Part shown: in pieces, positions 1-63,630 of the stretch
Numbering within the stretch: the first letter of the stretch is position 1
Layout: each line of letters begins with the position of its first letter
Notes under the pieces: model-generated
Database searches by the model: none
The model's input: the letters and a program-made list of their open reading frames with translations, nothing else
Told to the model about the DNA's origin: nothing
Assembly (NCBI GenBank): GCA_029261295.1
Contig: JAJDBP010000031.1
Coordinates: forward strand, 124,001-188,000
Source: Nitrospirales bacterium
Lineage (GTDB): Bacteria > Nitrospirota > Nitrospiria > Nitrospirales > UBA8639
Direction of reading: 5' to 3'
Length of the DNA: 64,000 nt
Made by a program: the position numbers and the translations under genes

Positions 1-1395
1 GTCGGCAATTCCAAAAAACATGGGACCGTTAGGTTCGAGGACAGCAATTTGTTTTCGCAGATGGGCTGGAACCAGTTCAGCGCCAGATTTTTGACTTTCC
101 TCAAGGCCGACGACTTTGGGTTTCCACATTTCGCTCATGTCCCGCACAAAGAGGAAGAAGGCGATGGCGAGTCCTACGCCAACAGCAACCAATAAGTCTT
201 CCCATACGGTCAAAAGGAATACCGTCCAAAAAGTAATTTTTGATGGGGTGGGGATGCGATGCAGAATGGGGAAGACTCGGAAGTCTAAGATGTCGTACCC
301 AACTTTAAAAAGGATGGCTGCGAGGCAACCCATAGGAATATACGAGGCTAAGGGTGCTAGGCCCAGAACAAGGGCGAGGAGTACGCATCCATGGACGATG
401 GTTGAGAGAATCGTTCGTGCTCCACATTGAATATTGGCAATGCTCCGCATGGTCGCGGTCGCAGTGGTGAGGCCTCCGATTAAGCCTGCTGCCATATTGG
501 CTAGGCCTTGTCCCCAGATTTCTTGGTCGCTGTTATGTCGGTCATCATCGCTCATTTGGTCAATGACGACGCAGGTCAGGAGGGAGTCATAGATGGCTAA
601 TCCAGCCAGCGCGGCCGCTGGAGGAAGCATGTCATAGAACTGGCTGATCGGGGGAAGATATAGATCAGGAAGGCCGATTGGCACTTCTGGAATGTAGTCG
701 ATATCCAAGGCTAAGAAATTGGCGATGGCTGTGCCCACGACTAAACCTATGAGAGGGGCTGGGAGCCAGATCACTTTTGTAATCTTGGGCCAGATCAATA
801 TTGTGCCCAAGGTGATGAGGGAAATCATGAGCGCATCAAAATGCGTGTTCATGAGGGAGCTGGGAATAGACAACAAGGCTTCACGAACTGATGAAAGGGT
901 GGGAAGCCCGAGGAAGGGATTTAATTCGATGATAATGACGATGGCACCAATGCCACACATGAATCCGGATATGACGGAATAGGGCGTGAGGTAGATGAAT
1001 TTCCCGACGCCCATAGCTGCCAAGATGAGCATGATGACGCCGCTCAAAAATACGCATCCGAAAGCGAAGCTCAGATCTGGTTGGCCATTCGCCAACATGT
1101 GGTCGTGCATGACCACGGCAAGCTGAACGGTTTTTGGGCCTGTCGGTCCGCTAACCCCAACATTTGACCCTCCGAATAGGCCCCCAACAAATCCCCCAGC
1201 AATGGCTCCCCACATGCCGGTAATGGCTCCAAGGCCAGAAGCTACGCCAAACCCCAACGCCAGCGGCAATGCGATGAAGGCGACCGTGACCCCTGCGAGT
1301 GTGTCCTGCGCAATGTTATTTCCCATGATCCGGATTCTCGGCCACGGGTTCATTTCTGAAAGGAAACCTTTAATTTTATTGCCAATGAAGTCCAT
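1..1395 (-). CDS. SulP-family anion transporter (partial, C-terminus beyond left edge)
   Basis: Reading the minus strand from an ATG at 1395 gives an open frame of 465 codons that runs off the left edge. It begins MDFIGNKIKGFLSEMNPWPR and continues with the SulP hallmark stretch GVSGPTGPKTVQLAVV, followed by many hydrophobic segments typical of the 14-helix SulP core. The last visible residues (about 450 onward, VLEPNGPMFFGIAD) are the start of a cytoplasmic STAS domain, so only the end of STAS is missing. SulP proteins carry sulfate, bicarbonate or other anions across the inner membrane; the substrate cannot be told from sequence. Bicarbonate uptake (BicA-like) would suit an autotroph, but that is inference. 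Family confidence is high, substrate unknown. Confidence 0.93.
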   Translation of the reverse strand, partial: MDFIGNKIKGFLSEMNPWPRIRIMGNNIAQDTLAGVTVAFIALPLALGFGVASGLGAITGMWGAIAGGFVGGLFGGSNVGVSGPTGPKTVQLAVVMHDHMLANGQPDLSFAFGCVFLSGVIMLILAAMGVGKFIYLTPYSVISGFMCGIGAIVIIIELNPFLGLPTLSSVREALLSIPSSLMNTHFDALMISLITLGTILIWPKITKVIWLPAPLIGLVVGTAIANFLALDIDYIPEVPIGLPDLYLPPISQFYDMLPPAAALAGLAIYDSLLTCVVIDQMSDDDRHNSDQEIWGQGLANMAAGLIGGLTTATATMRSIANIQCGARTILSTIVHGCVLLALVLGLAPLASYIPMGCLAAILFKVGYDILDFRVFPILHRIPTPSKITFWTVFLLTVWEDLLVAVGVGLAIAFFLFVRDMSEMWKPKVVGLEESQKSGAELVPAHLRKQIAVLEPNGPMFFGIAD

Positions 1396-1682
1396 TGATA
1401 TTTTTTACTTCCTGAGATTGTAAATGGGAGTAGAAAGCAAGGGAGGGACTACAACGTTCTTCTCAATTGCTAGAATCCAATAAATGTTAAAGCAAATCCT
1501 ATGCCTTTACTGCATGAGGTTTGAAGAGAGAAATGTTATCTCAACTCATTGATTCTATGTAATTTTTATGAGTAGTGATGGCAGTGTATTTGAGGTGAAT
1601 GGGTCGATTATCAAAATCGCGCTAAATGCTTTGAGTGAAAACGCACACATTAATGTTATTGGTGAATATTTTGATGTGCAGG

Positions 1683-55954: not shown

Positions 55955-56791
55955 ATGGATCTTGAGCGCCATCTCACACTTGGGTATTTTCAAGCGCATC
56001 CAGTTGAGGCGGCTCGACATTTGGAGTCGCTGGGTCCGCAAGAAGCCAGTGCGCTCTTGGAGTTGTTGCCGGGAGAAGAGATTGCCAATGTGTTAGAGCA
56101 TTGTTTACCGGTATCGACGGCGAAAATTCTGGGCGAACTCTCCAAAGAATTAAGCTCCGACGTATTAAGTGCCATGAATGCCACGTCAGCCATCGGCGTA
56201 CTTCGACAATTTGACGAGACTAGTCGTAATGATATTTTAGAGCGCTTAGATAATTCGATGGGCTCTACGCTTCGGCGTGCACTACGCTATTCACCCAATA
56301 CAGCGGGGAGTTTAGCTGACCCTCAAGTTTTCACGTTACCGCCAGATATTTCCGTTGAAGAAGCCGTTTCGCGTATCCGGACGTATGGTCAAAAGGCCAT
56401 GTATTACATTTATGTGATTGATCGCGACGGAAAATTGGAGGGGGTGCTCACGCTGAGACAATTGTTGGTTGATTCGTCCGATCATCTGGTTGGGACGTTA
56501 ATGGAAGCCCAAATTACGACCTTGTCGGCCGAAGCCAATCTTGAAGAAATTATCAAACATCCGGAATGGAGCCGATTTCATACGTTACCGGTTGTTGATC
56601 GATGGGGAACATTTTTTGGAGCGTTGCGTTATCGCATGTTACGTCGAATTGAAAAAGACGTGGAAGGCAAAGCGCCCTTGGGTTCTGTGAGTGACTCACT
56701 GATGCAACTATGGGAAGCCTATTCCATTACAGGTGTCCGTCTGATGACAGATGTGGCACAGACCCTACATGAACGGAAACCGAGCTCATGA
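55955..56791 (+). CDS. soluble MgtE-like protein: MgtE-N and CBS domains only
   Basis: 278 residues, no membrane helix. An MgtE_N superhelical domain (~20-120; LLELLPGEEIANVLEHCLP) is followed by a CBS pair (~125-240; GSLADPQVFTLPPDISVEEA, then VVDRWGTFFGALRYR). It resembles the cytoplasmic part of MgtE without the transporter, and overlaps the full mgtE by four bases. It may sense magnesium or regulate the neighbour by pairing. The transmembrane domain is absent rather than cut off, since the frame ends cleanly. Confidence 0.85.
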   Translation: MDLERHLTLGYFQAHPVEAARHLESLGPQEASALLELLPGEEIANVLEHCLPVSTAKILGELSKELSSDVLSAMNATSAIGVLRQFDETSRNDILERLDNSMGSTLRRALRYSPNTAGSLADPQVFTLPPDISVEEAVSRIRTYGQKAMYYIYVIDRDGKLEGVLTLRQLLVDSSDHLVGTLMEAQITTLSAEANLEEIIKHPEWSRFHTLPVVDRWGTFFGALRYRMLRRIEKDVEGKAPLGSVSDSLMQLWEAYSITGVRLMTDVAQTLHERKPSS

Positions 56792-58122
56792 GCCATGAAG
56801 CGGTGGATACAGCTGCGCCTCGATGGGGTGGGGCTCATGTCTTAAATGAAGCGTTCTTTCTGAAACATCATCAGGAAGCCGCCCGCATTTTAGAGGCCTA
56901 TCCCGCGACGGATATTCTCCGGGTTCTGCAAGGGACCAGTCCCAAAAATGCGGCAAATCTCCTGTCCAGTATTACTCCCCCTATTGCAGCGGAAACTCTC
57001 ACGCTGATGCCTACCGATTTATTGAAGCAGGTGATCCCTCATATGTCGCCGGCCCTCGCAGCCGCGTTGTTTCAGCGATTAGATGAAGATTTACAACGCG
57101 CCATTTTGTTCCGTGTGCCAGAACGATATGCCCAAGAGATTCGCTCGTATATGACATATCCGGTGGAATCCGTTGGTAGTATCATGGATCCCAAGTTTTT
57201 GGTGTTACAAGAAGAGCTGACCGTTCGAGACGCCATGTTGCATGTTCGATCACGTGCGCAAAAAGATGTTCATGATCTGTATGTCATCGATCGTCATCAC
57301 AAACTCGTTGGGAAATTTTCCGTGCGTGATTTGTTGCTGGTTGATCCTGAAGAAAAACTACAGGGCGTCATGATTCGCGATTTACCGACGATTCATCCCC
57401 TGGAATCCAGGGAAGAAATAGTTGAGCTCTTCAAAGAACGACATTTCTTCACGATTCCAGTGGTAGATTTAGATAATCGGTTGGTCGGCGTCGTACGCAA
57501 TGAAGACATTATTAAAGCCAGCCAAGAAGATGCGAGTGCCGATTTGCTCACCATGGTCGGGGCCAATAAGGATGAACGGGCCTTGTCTCCAGTGTGGTTT
57601 TCGGTTCAGAAACGATTGCCATGGCTGCAATTAAATTTAGTCACGGCCTTTTTAGCAGCGTTTGTGGTGGGGATGTTTGAAGGCACGATTGCGAAATTTA
57701 CCGCTTTGGCTGTGTTACTCCCTGTGGTTGCAGGCCAGTCGGGGAATACGGGTGCCCAATCCCTCGCTGTCGTGATTCGCGGGTTGGCTTTGCGAGATAT
57801 TCGACCTTCACAATGGCTGCGCGTGAGTGGAAAAGAAGTCTACGTGGCGTTTCTGAATGGATTAGCGGTGTCGGCTACCGCCTGTTTGGCTGTGGCTCTC
57901 TGGAGCCGGTCGTTGGGCTTAACCGTTATTATTGGGCTCTCCATGATCATTTCAATGGTGATCGCAGGATTATCCGGGGCTATTATTCCTATTGCCTTAA
58001 AAGCGATGAAACAAGATCCTGCTCAATCTTCCTCTATTGTGTTAACCACGATTACTGATGTGGTGGGATTTTTCAGCTTCCTCGGTCTTGCCACTCTTCT
58101 CTCCAGTTTATTGGAAGTATAA
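56788..58122 (+). CDS. mgtE: magnesium transporter MgtE
   Basis: 444 residues. MgtE_N (~25-130), CBS pair (~135-255) and five membrane helices (~285-440). The pore signature LPVVAGQSGNTGAQSLAVVIRG with the GNTG motif is intact. It lets Mg2+ into the cell, gated by magnesium at the cytoplasmic domains. The start overlaps the previous gene in ATGA, showing coupled translation with its soluble paralogue. Confidence 0.93.
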   Translation: MSHEAVDTAAPRWGGAHVLNEAFFLKHHQEAARILEAYPATDILRVLQGTSPKNAANLLSSITPPIAAETLTLMPTDLLKQVIPHMSPALAAALFQRLDEDLQRAILFRVPERYAQEIRSYMTYPVESVGSIMDPKFLVLQEELTVRDAMLHVRSRAQKDVHDLYVIDRHHKLVGKFSVRDLLLVDPEEKLQGVMIRDLPTIHPLESREEIVELFKERHFFTIPVVDLDNRLVGVVRNEDIIKASQEDASADLLTMVGANKDERALSPVWFSVQKRLPWLQLNLVTAFLAAFVVGMFEGTIAKFTALAVLLPVVAGQSGNTGAQSLAVVIRGLALRDIRPSQWLRVSGKEVYVAFLNGLAVSATACLAVALWSRSLGLTVIIGLSMIISMVIAGLSGAIIPIALKAMKQDPAQSSSIVLTTITDVVGFFSFLGLATLLSSLLEV

Positions 58123-59115: not shown

Positions 59116-59304
59116 TGGTTGTCTCACTTTGCCAGCCTTCACACTAGCCGCAGTTCGGAATTTCTCGTCTCGTTGAATCGCAGTATGCCTTCCTAGTCTT
59201 AAAAAATTCTAATCTGTATTTAATCTTCATATTAGAGTTCCCCTGTATGCTCTTTGTATGAGCAAGGTGCGATGTTGGTTTATTCTCATCAAGGAGGACG
59301 GCAT

Positions 59305-60822
59305 ATGGAGAGGAACGAAAAAGTCGCGGTGTTTCAAAAGGACTTTGGTCACGTGTGGCAAAAGGGTCTAGGATTGGCAGGAATCGGTATCCTTGCTGGT
59401 GCCCTTCTGTTTGGGGGGTGGAATAATCCTGCTCAAACTTTTGCTCATAAGGCAGAAGCGAATCAGAGTGGTCAAGCCACCGATCCTCCTCATTTCCAAA
59501 AAGGAGGATTTGCCGATATTGCCAAACGCGTGACTCCAGCCGTCGTGAATATTACCGTCAGCAAACAAGCCGCCGTGCCCATGTCTGGCGGGCCGTTTGA
59601 TCCGATGAAAGAGTTTTTTGGGTTGCCGGGTAATCCTGGATTCCCACCTCGTGGCAATCAGCGCCCGATGCCTGATCTTCAAGGGGCCGGTTCTGGGGTC
59701 ATCGTCTCCTCCGATGGCTATGTCTTAACCAACAATCATGTCGTAGAGGAAGCCAAACAAATTACCGTGACGCTTCCCGATAAACGGGAATATCCAGGAA
59801 CGGTAGTGGGTCTGGATCCGAAAACTGACTTGGCCGTGATAAAGGTGGAAGGCACCGATCTGCCTTTTGTGCCGTGGGGTGACTCTTCCGATCTGCAAGT
59901 GGGCGAATATGTGTTGGCCGTGGGCAATCCCTTTGGGTTGAATTCCACCGTGACCTTGGGAATCGTGAGTGCCTTAGGTCGAGGCGGGATGGGCATTACG
60001 CAATATGAAGACTTCATTCAAACTGATGCCGCCATCAATCCCGGGAATTCTGGCGGGGCATTGGTCAATGTTCGGGGCGAGTTGGTCGGAATCAATACCG
60101 CCATCTTTTCTCGAAGTGGAGGCTATCAGGGAGTAGGGTTTGCTATTCCCACCAAATTAGCCAAACCCATCTATGGGAGTTTGGTGAAGACTGGGTCAGT
60201 GGTACGAGGATTCTTGGGTGTGGGGATCCAAGGCATTACTCCTGATTTAGCGGAGTCGTTTCAATTAGACAAAACCCAAGGGGCCCTCGTGACGAATGTG
60301 ATGCCTGGAAGCCCTGCGGATCAAGCCGGTATTCAACGTGGTGATGTGATTATAGAATATGAGGGGCAAGCGGTAGAAGATCCACGAGGCTTGCAAGGGC
60401 AAGTGATGAATACAGTTGTGGGAAATCAAATATCGCTCATGGTCATGCGAGAAGGGAAAAAAGTCACCCTGAGCCCCGTCATTCGTGAACAGAACGAGCC
60501 CACGAAAGTGGCTCGTACTAACCACATAAAAAAAGACGGCCCGTTTGCCGGAGTGGCCGTTCAAGACTTGAATAGCCAAATGGCGCAACAGTTAGGCATA
60601 GCCGAAGAGGTGAGTGGTGTGGTCGTGATGGAGGTGACACCAGGGAGCCAGGCAGAACGAGCCGGATTGGCACAAGGCGATGTCATCAGTGAGATTAATC
60701 GAAAGCCAGTGCATTCAGAGCAAGACTTCGTTCAAGTCGTCTCTCACTTAGAAAAGAAAAAAGACGCTCTCATCTTTGTCCATCGTGGGAAAGGAGCCTT
60801 ATATCTGACGGTGAAGATTTAG
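59305..60822 (+). CDS. degP: DegP/HtrA-type periplasmic serine protease
   Basis: 505 residues from the ATG at 59305, seven bases after AAGGAGG; a longer frame to 59254 lacks support. One N-terminal hydrophobic segment (signal or anchor). The protease domain has all three catalytic residues: VLTNNHVVEEA (His), PKTDLAVIKV (Asp) and NPGNSGGALVNVRGE (Ser). Two PDZ domains follow (~300-390; ~410-500). It degrades or refolds damaged envelope proteins. DegP/DegQ/DegS cannot be separated surely; two PDZ domains rule out DegS. Confidence 0.92.
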   Translation: MERNEKVAVFQKDFGHVWQKGLGLAGIGILAGALLFGGWNNPAQTFAHKAEANQSGQATDPPHFQKGGFADIAKRVTPAVVNITVSKQAAVPMSGGPFDPMKEFFGLPGNPGFPPRGNQRPMPDLQGAGSGVIVSSDGYVLTNNHVVEEAKQITVTLPDKREYPGTVVGLDPKTDLAVIKVEGTDLPFVPWGDSSDLQVGEYVLAVGNPFGLNSTVTLGIVSALGRGGMGITQYEDFIQTDAAINPGNSGGALVNVRGELVGINTAIFSRSGGYQGVGFAIPTKLAKPIYGSLVKTGSVVRGFLGVGIQGITPDLAESFQLDKTQGALVTNVMPGSPADQAGIQRGDVIIEYEGQAVEDPRGLQGQVMNTVVGNQISLMVMREGKKVTLSPVIREQNEPTKVARTNHIKKDGPFAGVAVQDLNSQMAQQLGIAEEVSGVVVMEVTPGSQAERAGLAQGDVISEINRKPVHSEQDFVQVVSHLEKKKDALIFVHRGKGALYLTVKI

Positions 60823-61143: not shown

Positions 61144-61189
61144 TATACATTTAAAAATTATATGAATTAACTATAAATTATATATTTGT
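61144..61189. promoter_or_regulatory. AT-rich element B upstream of the repeat protein
   Basis: 46 bases starting TATACATTTAAAAA and ending ATATATTTGT. It matches element A (62935-62980) at 36 of 46 positions with no gap, including a fully identical first 14 bases. It contains ATGAAT and a T-N11-A spacing as in LysR-type sites, and TATAAT directly follows (61189-61194) as a possible -10 box. It lies about 258 bases before the repeat-protein ATG. Most likely a binding site of the LysR protein nearby. Confidence 0.5.
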
Positions 61190-61299
61190 ATAATTAAATT
61201 AAAAGGCTATATTGAAATTAATGAGAAAGAAATAAATAGGGAGCAAACATAGTTCATTAAAGAATGAAGAAAACGAAATTGAGTCAAATGATTTTCGTT

Positions 61300-61384
61300 A
61301 AGCAGGATTTGAAAGAGATGCCTGCTTGAGAAGTGGGAAGCATGACGATGTTTCCCATAGTGCCCTGGACGAGCTCATCCAGGG
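61300..61384 (+). other. three tandem hairpins in the leader of the repeat protein
   Basis: Hairpin 1: AAGCAGG (61300) with CCTGCTT (61321). Hairpin 2: TGGGAAGCAT (61334) with ATGTTTCCCA (61348), ten pairs including one G-T, loop GACG. Hairpin 3: CCCTGGA (61363) with TCCAGGG (61378). They are separated by six and five bases and end 62 bases before the ATG. A structured 5' leader is likely; I know no riboswitch class it fits. The AT-rich stretch before it (61190-61299) has no gene. Confidence 0.5.
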
Positions 61385-61446
61385 AGGATAGCTGGGAGGT
61401 GTAAAGCTTCCTACATTACTAAACACTCAAAATATGGGGGTCAATC

Positions 61447-61749
61447 ATGAAAATCTTCACTACGACATTGATCAGTCTGTGTTTGCTTGGCAGCTCGACC
61501 GCATTGGCGGCCCCTACCCACTATGATGTGGAGCAAGATGAGTTTTGGCATGGGGCAGAGGCAGTGGTTTCCCACCAAACCACCAGTCCAGCAGATAATG
61601 TATCCGTCAAGCCGTATGATGTGGAGCAAGATGAGTTGTGGCATGGGTCGGACAAGGCGGGCCCCCCTACCTCTACGACTACCGCATCCGAGAATATGCC
61701 AATTCAACACTATGACGTGGAACAAGATGAGTTGTGGCATGGGGGGTGA
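61447..61749 (+). CDS. small secreted repeat protein with three YDVEQDE-WHG motifs
   Basis: 100 residues. Residues 1-21 are a signal peptide ending ALA. The ~79-residue mature protein has three near-identical 11-residue units (residues 26-36, 57-67, 89-99) spaced 31 and 32 residues apart, joined by Ser/Thr/Pro-rich linkers that are probably unstructured. Each unit has four or more acidic residues plus Tyr, Trp and His, which could bind metal or a partner. The DNA of the units is nearly identical too. No family recognised. It has its own structured leader and terminator, and an upstream element shared with a LysR gene. Confidence 0.8.
   Translation: MKIFTTTLISLCLLGSSTALAAPTHYDVEQDEFWHGAEAVVSHQTTSPADNVSVKPYDVEQDELWHGSDKAGPPTSTTTASENMPIQHYDVEQDELWHGG
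61522..61743 (+). repeat. three 33-base coding repeats
   Basis: Units at 61522-61554, 61615-61647 and 61711-61743, each encoding YDVEQDE(F/L)WHG. Units 1 and 2 differ at one base; unit 3 has two further silent changes. Spacing is 93 and 96 bases. The closeness at synonymous sites points to recent duplication or gene conversion. Confidence 0.9.
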
Positions 61750-61771
61750 GATGGATACCTGAGTATTTATG

Positions 61772-61810
61772 AACCCGCGGGGGCCATTTGGCCCCCGCGG
61801 GTTTGGTTTT
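61772..61810 (+). terminator. strong terminator after the repeat protein
   Basis: Perfect 14-bp GC-rich stem AACCCGCGGGGGCC / GGCCCCCGCGGGTT with loop ATTT, followed by TGGTTTT. It starts 23 bases after the stop codon. An efficient single-gene terminator, consistent with a highly expressed short mRNA. Confidence 0.92.
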
Positions 61811-62022: not shown

Positions 62023-62922
62023 TTACTTAAAGACCGTCTCTTTCGCCGACGTAGATATGGCCAAGACAGCAGGGTGTTTGATGCGTCGAGCGACCGTAAT
62101 GCCATAGAACTGTTCTGTAAGCTCTGGAATGTGGCCAACCGTGCGCACCTGATATTGGCGGGTAATTTCCTTTGCGACTACGGATGACCCAGGAAATAAA
62201 CCGTGCCCTTCCTGCCCAAACGCTTTCATCGTCGCCCCATCTTCAAACTCTCCAACAATTGTCGGATGAAGCTGGTGTTTGCGAAACCATTCCTCCATCC
62301 CACGTCTCAGCACAGAGTTGTTCGTCGGTAACAAGAATCGTGCGCCATCCAGGGATTGTGGAAATTTACGGCGATAGTGACGGGCCAAAGGTTCCGTTCC
62401 AAATATCGTCACGCCGGTTTCTCCGAGTAAATGACTGTGGGCTTCAATGCTAACTGTTGGAGGGACAGGGGCATCAGTCAGTACAATATCGAGTGTATGC
62501 TGAGCGAGCTCCCCTAGGAGTCGCTCTAATCGACCTTCCCAACAGACGACCTTGATGTGCTCAAACTGTTGAAAAGCTACTTTTAACAATTTATAGGCCA
62601 CCATTTTTGGCACGACCTCTGCGATCCCAACAACCAAGCGAACAGGATGATCAGCTTCCCGTCCTTTTAGGGTGTTGGTCAATTCATTGCCTAGGGTAAA
62701 GATTTCATCAGCATAGCGATAAGTAATTTTTCCAATTTCAGTCAGAACTAATCTACGGCCAACCCGTTCGAATAATTGTTCACCCACTGCGTCTTCAAGC
62801 GTCCGAAGTTGAACGCTGAGTGCAGGCTGCGACAGGCTGAGTCGTTCACAGGCCTGTTTAATTGAGCCTTCCCGCGCGATAACCCAGAAATATAACAAGT
62901 GATGGTAGTTGAGCCAGTCCAT
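62023..62922 (-). CDS. LysR-family regulator, NhaR-like
   Basis: 299 residues from the ATG at 62922, with GGA shortly before; a longer frame to 63015 is unsupported. The N-terminal winged helix LNYHHLLYFWVIAREGSIKQ and LSLSQPALSVQLRTLEDAVG is very close to NhaR-type proteins, which activate sodium/proton antiporters or envelope polysaccharide genes in other bacteria. The C-terminal ~200 residues form the effector-binding domain. It is divergent from a receiver-like gene, and its upstream region carries element A, which is also present before the repeat protein, suggesting autoregulation and control of that gene. Ligand unknown. Confidence 0.87.
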   Translation of the reverse strand: MDWLNYHHLLYFWVIAREGSIKQACERLSLSQPALSVQLRTLEDAVGEQLFERVGRRLVLTEIGKITYRYADEIFTLGNELTNTLKGREADHPVRLVVGIAEVVPKMVAYKLLKVAFQQFEHIKVVCWEGRLERLLGELAQHTLDIVLTDAPVPPTVSIEAHSHLLGETGVTIFGTEPLARHYRRKFPQSLDGARFLLPTNNSVLRRGMEEWFRKHQLHPTIVGEFEDGATMKAFGQEGHGLFPGSSVVAKEITRQYQVRTVGHIPELTEQFYGITVARRIKHPAVLAISTSAKETVFK

Positions 62923-62934
62923 TGATCTTCCAAC

Positions 62935-62980
62935 TATACATTTAAAAAAGTAATGAATCAAATTCATATTATGTATTTGT
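62935..62980. promoter_or_regulatory. AT-rich element A between LysR and receiver genes
   Basis: 46 bases, TATACATTTAAAAA at the left and TGTATTTGT at the right, 36/46 identical to element B. Its centre is the dyad ATGAAT-CAA-ATTCAT (62953-62967), which fits the T-N11-A pattern of LysR operators. It starts 13 bases before the LysR ATG and ends 272 bases before the receiver-like gene, so it can serve either or both. The rest of the 330-base gap (to 63252) shows nothing else clear. Confidence 0.55.
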
Positions 62981-63252
62981 CTTATGCTAATTAGTGCCGA
63001 TATCATACGAATCAATGGTCGTCCCCAGGCAAATGGGTTGTCCTCCTAAGAAACGAAAGGTGAAATACATAAGAAGAGGGGTCGGAATCCAAAGTTTTTT
63101 GCCATGGCCAATTGAAAGAGAAATGGTGAAAAGATTGTATAGTAGGTTTTTGACTCTTCGTAGGTTGGACTGGGGGAACACGAGGTTGAAGAATGATAGC
63201 GGACAATGAAATTTTTCGTATTTGCGTTCACTAGGTATTCTGTTTTATTTTG

Positions 63253-63630
63253 ATGAAAAAAGGGCAATCTCGTAATTTAGATGTTGTGGTTGCGGAAAAG
63301 AATAATGAGGACCGTCTTTCCTTATGCAGTTTAGTCGCCGGGTTGAATTGCGTGCCCATTCCAACCGACTCGGGCTTGGACACAATGAGGGCAATTAAAC
63401 AGGGACAGGTCGCCCTTGTGTTGTTGTCCGTTGATTTTGCATTGCCCGCTGGAGAGAACGTTCTTCATGAAATTCGACAAGTCGCTCCTTCGCTGCCGGT
63501 TATTATGATGAGTGGAGTCATGGCTCCGACTTTGCTCAGGCGGCTAGGTGACCGTGGGGCTCAAGGCTTCTTGGTGAAACCAATACAACGGGACCAGCTG
63601 GCGATCACCTTGTTCCGGTATCTTTTGTAA
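63253..63630 (+). CDS. receiver-like domain protein lacking the phospho-acceptor Asp
   Basis: 125 residues, a stand-alone CheY-like fold. Strand 1 is DVVVAEKNNEDRLSL, strand 3 VALVLLSVDFALPAGENVL, strand 4 PVIMMSGVMAP and strand 5 GFLVKPIQRDQ with the conserved Lys. The position that normally holds the phosphorylated Asp (LLD-) is Ser (LLS), and the usual acidic pair at the N-terminus is reduced (AEKNNED). It may work without phosphorylation. No output domain. No good ribosome site is visible; ATG at 63253 follows an in-frame TTG. Confidence 0.72.
   Translation: MKKGQSRNLDVVVAEKNNEDRLSLCSLVAGLNCVPIPTDSGLDTMRAIKQGQVALVLLSVDFALPAGENVLHEIRQVAPSLPVIMMSGVMAPTLLRRLGDRGAQGFLVKPIQRDQLAITLFRYLL

Follow-up and report, generated by a model that had tools for sequence, protein, structure and literature searches.

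An undescribed, lineage-specific exported protein with tandem YDVEQDE-WHG motifs next to an nhaR-linked promoter element in Nitrospirales

What could be the role of a small, isolated gene whose product is built around three almost identical copies of one short motif? The question is raised by ORF 61447-61749 (+), which encodes a 100-aa protein and lies in a 64,000-nt stretch of a Nitrospirales contig (the whole of this stretch is called the window below). An earlier note, made from the sequence alone, had described the product as an undescribed secreted protein with three 11-residue units at regular spacing in a 79-residue mature part, joined by flexible linkers, and had proposed a multivalent metal or surface ligand, or a bait motif. 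The features of the gene are the following (G011 is a congeneric genome, see below):

61436-61440 (+), Shine-Dalgarno-like GGGGG, from reading of the sequence
61447-61749 (+), gene encoding the exported 100-aa protein with tandem motifs, from the ORF, its homologues and codon-position differences
61447-61509 (+), Sec-type signal peptide, predicted cleavage after ALA (residue 21), from the sequence and its conservation in G011
61522-61554 (+), unit 1, YDVEQDEFWHG, residues 26-36
61615-61647 (+), unit 2, YDVEQDELWHG, residues 57-67
61711-61743 (+), unit 3, YDVEQDELWHG, residues 89-99, followed by a C-terminal Gly and the stop codon
61770-61805 (+), intrinsic terminator with a 16-pair stem (12 of the 16 pairs are G-C)

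The protein consists of a signal-like N-terminus, MKIFTTTLISLCLLGSSTALA, and a mature part, APTHYDVEQDEFWHGAEAVVSHQTTSPADNVSVKPYDVEQDELWHGSDKAGPPTSTTTASENMPIQHYDVEQDELWHGG; a unit-type peptide, with its Trp and His, reads HYDVEQDEFWHGG. Recomputation gave the unit starts at residues 26, 57 and 89, i.e. a spacing of 31 and then 32 residues, and a mature part of 79 residues after the predicted signal cleavage, in full agreement with the earlier description. Acidic residues number 16 and basic ones 2 in this mature part (8.8 kDa, pI 4.26), which has 6 His and lacks Cys. The Sec-type signal peptide predicted at the N-terminus points to export by the Sec pathway, as the word 'secreted' had implied. 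The AlphaFold model, built on an alignment of just three sequences, has a mean pLDDT of 51 and the signal helix as its sole structure: the flexible linkers are thus borne out, and the low predicted order of the protein is consistent with disorder, the alignment being too shallow for proof. When 854 kb of the same genome were crudely scanned for internal exact repeats in small exported ORFs, the window ORF came out clearly on top with its 11-residue repeat, the runner-up being a 7-residue repeat in an apparently spurious ORF, and no other ORF ending in W[HT][GL][GA] was found in this 854-kb sample.

Is the protein known? The Pfam, NCBIfam, PHROGs and PADLOC collections contain no model matching it at the curated cut-off or at E<0.005. 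The best family match, YbgS (PF13985), scored 17 bits, below the cut-off of 27 and too low for membership; YbgS is likewise a small exported low-complexity protein, but it has no repeat unit in common with the motif protein. Two motif strings were looked for and found in no paper of the literature searched, and no significant homologue was found among plasmids, phages and viral contigs. The protein is therefore still undescribed, as had been supposed. A tblastn search of 21 genomes of the genus returned two homologues, in the congeneric Nitrospirales MAGs G011 and G012. The first has two units, MKIITTTLISLCLLGSSAAFADRNHYDVAQDEFWHGAE...DDFVDHYDVAQDEFWHGG, and the second has one, MKIQAIMAADIFLSQSSVAFANTPLMNHYDLMQDEFWHGG, so that the unit number, whose variation between strains the earlier note had asked about, does vary between genomes: 3 in the window genome (G000), 2 in G011 and 1 in G012. 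WHGG is the C-terminal end of all three proteins, QDEFWHGG* being kept in the homologues, and the units and the C-terminus are conserved while the linkers have diverged. Since there are only three homologues, the constraint on the units is read from few sequences. The fourth residue of the unit (E, A or M) is identical in all units of a given genome, and units resemble each other more within than between genomes. The signal peptide of the G011 protein is MKIITTTLISLCLLGSSAAFA; that of the G012 protein is weak, with an Asp at residue 10. Farther afield, a DNA pattern for QDE[FL]WHG was found in no other genome among 396 drawn from the phylum (a draw that excluded G011 and G012), and a scan of GTDB contigs with the longer QDE[FL]WHGG pattern gave only three further matches (L067, L069 and L070), which were taken as chance matches because their contexts, once read, proved unrelated.

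Comparison of the window gene with its G011 orthologue supports the coding status of the ORF: over 53 alignable codons, the differences at codon positions 1, 2 and 3 number 4, 5 and 12, respectively. These substitutions favour the + frame, and a 99-aa antisense ORF spanning the whole gene (window 61441-61740, -), probably a by-product of codon composition, was for that reason set aside. From the above we concluded that the repeat protein is a genuine, undescribed, lineage-specific exported protein.

The motif gene sits between a gene for a DegP-family protease and nhaR, tail to tail with the latter:

59254-60822 (+), DegP/HtrA-family periplasmic protease, the upstream neighbour and a separate unit (TIGR02037, E 8.9e-148)
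62023-62922 (-), LysR-family regulator NhaR (NCBIfam NF008284, E 2.7e-69, 233.6 bits, above the cut-off of 219)
63250-63630 (+), response-regulator receiver protein, downstream of a second promoter site (Pfam PF00072, E 2e-10)

Two other regions of the window may be mentioned. Between 6177 and 12027 (-), a TIR-like protein, a MoxR-type AAA ATPase, a vWA-like protein and a large protein, identified by eye, may form a defence or conflict system, and at 55955-58122 two consecutive ORFs resemble the halves of an MgtE-type magnesium transporter (CBS domains, the second ORF with the membrane part).

The DegP-nhaR-receiver synteny is kept in G016, the closest relative as judged from NhaR (93%), where an Hsp20-like gene (L063:5156-5554, -) occupies the place of the motif gene between degP and nhaR. 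Its absence from the equivalent site means that the motif gene is dispensable or lineage-specific. Together with the confinement to three genomes of one genus and the homogenization of the units within each, this absence would suit a young orphan gene devoid of selected function, in which slippage or unequal exchange has multiplied a short segment. We consider such an origin decidedly improbable: the units and the C-terminus have been kept across species in spite of the divergence of the linkers, third positions account for 12 of the 21 nucleotide differences, and a conserved promoter (see below) precedes two of the three gene copies.

The proximity of a periplasmic protease gene brings to mind a different fate for the protein, that of a precursor whose linkers would be cut by a protease after Sec export to release repeated signal peptides of about 12 residues. 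A leader, near-identical short units and variable linkers are also what is seen in yeast alpha-factor and in multi-core RiPP precursors, and the variable copy number and the signal peptide are in keeping with the same idea. However, the motif protein has no conserved processing sites: the residues before the units (THYD, KPYD, QHYD) and after them (HGA, HGS, HGG) differ, also between species, and conserved cleavage residues flanking a core, the mark of RiPP and peptide-hormone precursors, are thus not seen. DegP is not a neighbour of the motif gene in G011 and G012, no receptor gene was recognized, and matches in the PDB were all insignificant, including those to alpha-factor fusions (E 0.74). 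A precursor role is accordingly improbable in our view. The assigned neighbours (DegP, NhaR and the receiver protein) include no modifying enzyme, though one may be encoded farther away.

The upstream region proved more informative. A common element emerged from the regions preceding the window gene, its G011 homologue and nearby island genes, with the consensus CATyyA-N5-TnnATG, 18 nt, TATTTGT-n-TATrT. In the window it occurs as follows:

61147-61196 (+), 50-bp promoter element upstream of the motif gene, from alignment with 5 other upstream regions
61148-61164 (+), LysR-type dyad CATTTA-N5-TATATG containing T-N11-A
61167-61194 (+), sigma-70-like TTAACT-16-TATAAT
61183-61189 (+), TATTTGT, 18 nt after the dyad, overlapping the TATAAT -10 (61189-61194)
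62938-62987 (+), second copy of the element, in the intergenic region that separates nhaR from the divergent response-regulator gene, with its dyad at 62939-62955

The earlier view of the gene as a separate unit agrees with this promoter and with the terminator at 61770-61805. A PWM was built from six sequences, the seeds being aligned on TATT[AT]GT only; leave-one-out scores for the six ranged from 15.6 to 38.3, and the window site scored 48.6 (36.5 when left out). In a further 790 kb of the same genome nothing scored above 14, but many congeners gave matches in their nhaR intergenic regions. A pattern search of the 21 genomes, allowing up to 2 mismatches, found the element 26 times and the reversed control pattern once; 24 of the 26 matches had nhaR-island genes downstream. 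The window genome (4.06 Mb) has exactly two pattern matches, 61148-61193 and 62939-62984, which are 1.8 kb apart and flank nhaR, one on each side. The T and A of T-N11-A, the signature of LysR regulators, are invariant in all 22 sites tabulated, and dyad symmetry over 24 sites peaks at the T-N11-A centre (0.594 versus a median of 0.349 among the centres tried), part of the similarity in dyad and spacing being built in because the sites were chosen by matching. The genes found downstream of a site are of several kinds:

motif gene: G000, G011
exported DWTLA-repeat proteins: G001, G002, G012, G015, G018, with degenerate copies in G017 and G019
coiled-coil lipoproteins: G007, G011, G012, G013
HlyD: G001, G002, G018, G019
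receiver protein: G000, G016, G020
lipoprotein gene with degraded leader region: G005

The motif gene of G012 has no site directly upstream and is preceded by a lipoprotein gene that has one. Several genes under the nhaR-linked element encode lipoproteins with a KPYxDPKGFRRxGWKRL-like motif, a small coiled-coil family present in several copies (L061:5112-5510 (-), L061:7270-7677, L061:13661-14059 and L061:18803-19294).

As the adjacent LysR gene is an nhaR and the T-N11-A dyad matches the divergent intergenic region of this regulator, the sequences argue for regulation of the motif gene by NhaR. The regulon of E. coli NhaR includes nhaA, osmC and pgaABCD. An LysR protein of the NCBIfam NhaR family, a divergent promoter beside the regulator gene and a T-N11-A dyad are common to both cases; the targets differ, those predicted here from their sites being genes for exported repeat proteins and lipoproteins as well as for an HlyD adaptor and a receiver protein. 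E. coli NhaR is described as a high-salt and high-pH regulator (PMC6307784) and, by analogy, NhaR control of the motif gene would perhaps imply a response to sodium or pH.

Between promoter and gene there is a leader:

61328-61414 (+), 5' leader with three predicted hairpins (61336-61355, 61363-61384 and 61394-61411)

Over 141 nt it shares 74% identity with the sequence ahead of the G012 homologue, and over 87 nt it shares 79% with that ahead of another exported-protein gene of G012. Its fold has a z-score of -3.1 in the window, compared with -0.2 and -1.8 for the relatives; the three sequences show no compensatory or covarying pairs, and Rfam gave no gathering match in the window and nothing relevant to the leader at E<=1. 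The usual grounds for calling it a structured RNA or a riboswitch are thus not provided by Rfam or covariation. A leader model (R1), run on the 21 genomes, found only these three copies at low E-value; a regulon-wide RNA was therefore rejected, and the leader is at most a local duplication. A G012 gene, L024:4059-4673, encodes an exported protein ending in YDWIVEEAILGW; its leader is as in the motif gene and the start of its signal is similar, with a different mature part, which suggests that leader and signal are exchanged between genes as a module.

In G011 and G012 the motif gene is followed by genes for a nucleotidyltransferase, a disulfide oxidoreductase and a CBS protein and, on the other strand, by nhaR, beyond which lie genes for a coiled-coil lipoprotein, HlyD, TolC and an ABC transporter. 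These exporter genes belong to the nhaR island of both genomes and of most genomes with DWTLA genes, and they have the promoter element in common with the motif gene. Could the motif protein be their substrate, its units acting as recognition signals? We find this very hard to credit: the window genome, which is 100% complete, has no HlyD orthologue at E<=1e-30 and neither has G015 in spite of its DWTLA gene, so that the exporter was rejected as an obligate partner. The presence of HlyD, TolC and ABC genes in congeners also led us to consider the SecA-linked type I module of Planctomycetes and Nitrospirae (PMC4452313); no SecA was recognized among the ORFs downstream in G012.

The DWTLA-repeat proteins, for which we know of no established name, are encoded at L079:1195-1626, L080:1259-1732, L081:1354-1824, L075:1402-1803 (-), L076 about 1308-1614 (-) and L024:5553-6062. 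They have a signal or anchor segment followed by an acidic tail (predicted pI about 4) in which a unit of the EEEVDWTLA type occurs 3 to 5 times, the final one generally at the C-terminus. Among 217 genomes of the order, a strict DNA pattern for EVDW[TA]LA was confined to this genus. No sequence homology is detectable between DWTLA and YDVEQDE proteins, yet both are small and acidic, with an N-terminal signal or anchor, a tandem Trp motif and a C-terminal copy of it, and both go with a location near nhaR and with the same promoter element, which is found with DWTLA-repeat genes of six congeners. They differ in the motif itself, in the period (14-17 residues for DWTLA), in the signal sequence and in the usual operon of DWTLA genes with a conserved lipoprotein, beside nhaR. 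The W-x-L within DWTLA recalls WxL domain proteins, the motif protein having WHG instead; neither protein has a Pfam match to the WxL domain. A further G012 protein (L024:2746-3048) has a signal peptide and two DSEWALEDQP repeats, with no relatives in the 21 genomes of the genus.

The DWTLA proteins also bear on the proposal that the acidic, His-containing units chelate metal, the protein buffering metal or cations in the periplasm. The composition of the mature part and its low pI favour such a role, as do the Asp and His kept four residues apart (QDEFWH) in all units and the salt response with which the NhaR type of regulator is associated in E. coli. However, the His flanking unit 1 (THYD) becomes a Pro in unit 2 (KPYD), Cys is lacking, no known metal-binding family matched, and the repeated motif of the DWTLA proteins, under the same promoter, contains no His, so that any metal role common to both would have to depend solely on their acidic residues. 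On balance we see metal or cation binding as unlikely.

Our preferred explanation, held tentatively and at a little short of an even chance, is an NhaR-controlled, Sec-exported, disordered envelope protein presenting several copies of a short motif. The neighbouring NhaR-type regulator would control the gene, and Sec would export a small acidic, largely disordered protein resembling beads on a string. Each bead, YDxxQDE[F/L]WHG, is hypothesized to be a short linear motif that docks on an envelope or extracellular partner; the linkers would serve as spacers only, a copy number of 1 to 3 would tune avidity, and one bead would always be retained at the extreme C-terminus. Because the same promoter element precedes genes for acidic exported DWTLA proteins in congeners, the YDVEQDE protein may be the local version of an NhaR-regulated family of multivalent motif proteins. 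A bolder extension, which we judge rather unlikely, has NhaR switching, genus-wide, interchangeable exported strings of Trp motifs (WHGG or DWTLA) that act as multivalent ligands or peptide precursors in a salt or pH response; if true, it would amount to a previously undescribed secreted short-motif signalling or assembly system. The earlier interpretation is thus partly supported, and the nhaR-linked promoter, the DWTLA parallel and the constant C-terminal position of the last unit are absent from it.

To conclude, an unannotated exported repeat protein is tied to a defined regulator site and, as this site occurs only twice in the genome, its function is open to a small number of clear tests: the nhaR-linked promoter site makes an undescribed protein family testable. 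One Nitrospirales lineage has multiplied unrelated short Trp motifs in exported proteins with a common promoter, a pattern suggestive of selection in favour of multivalency on the cell surface.
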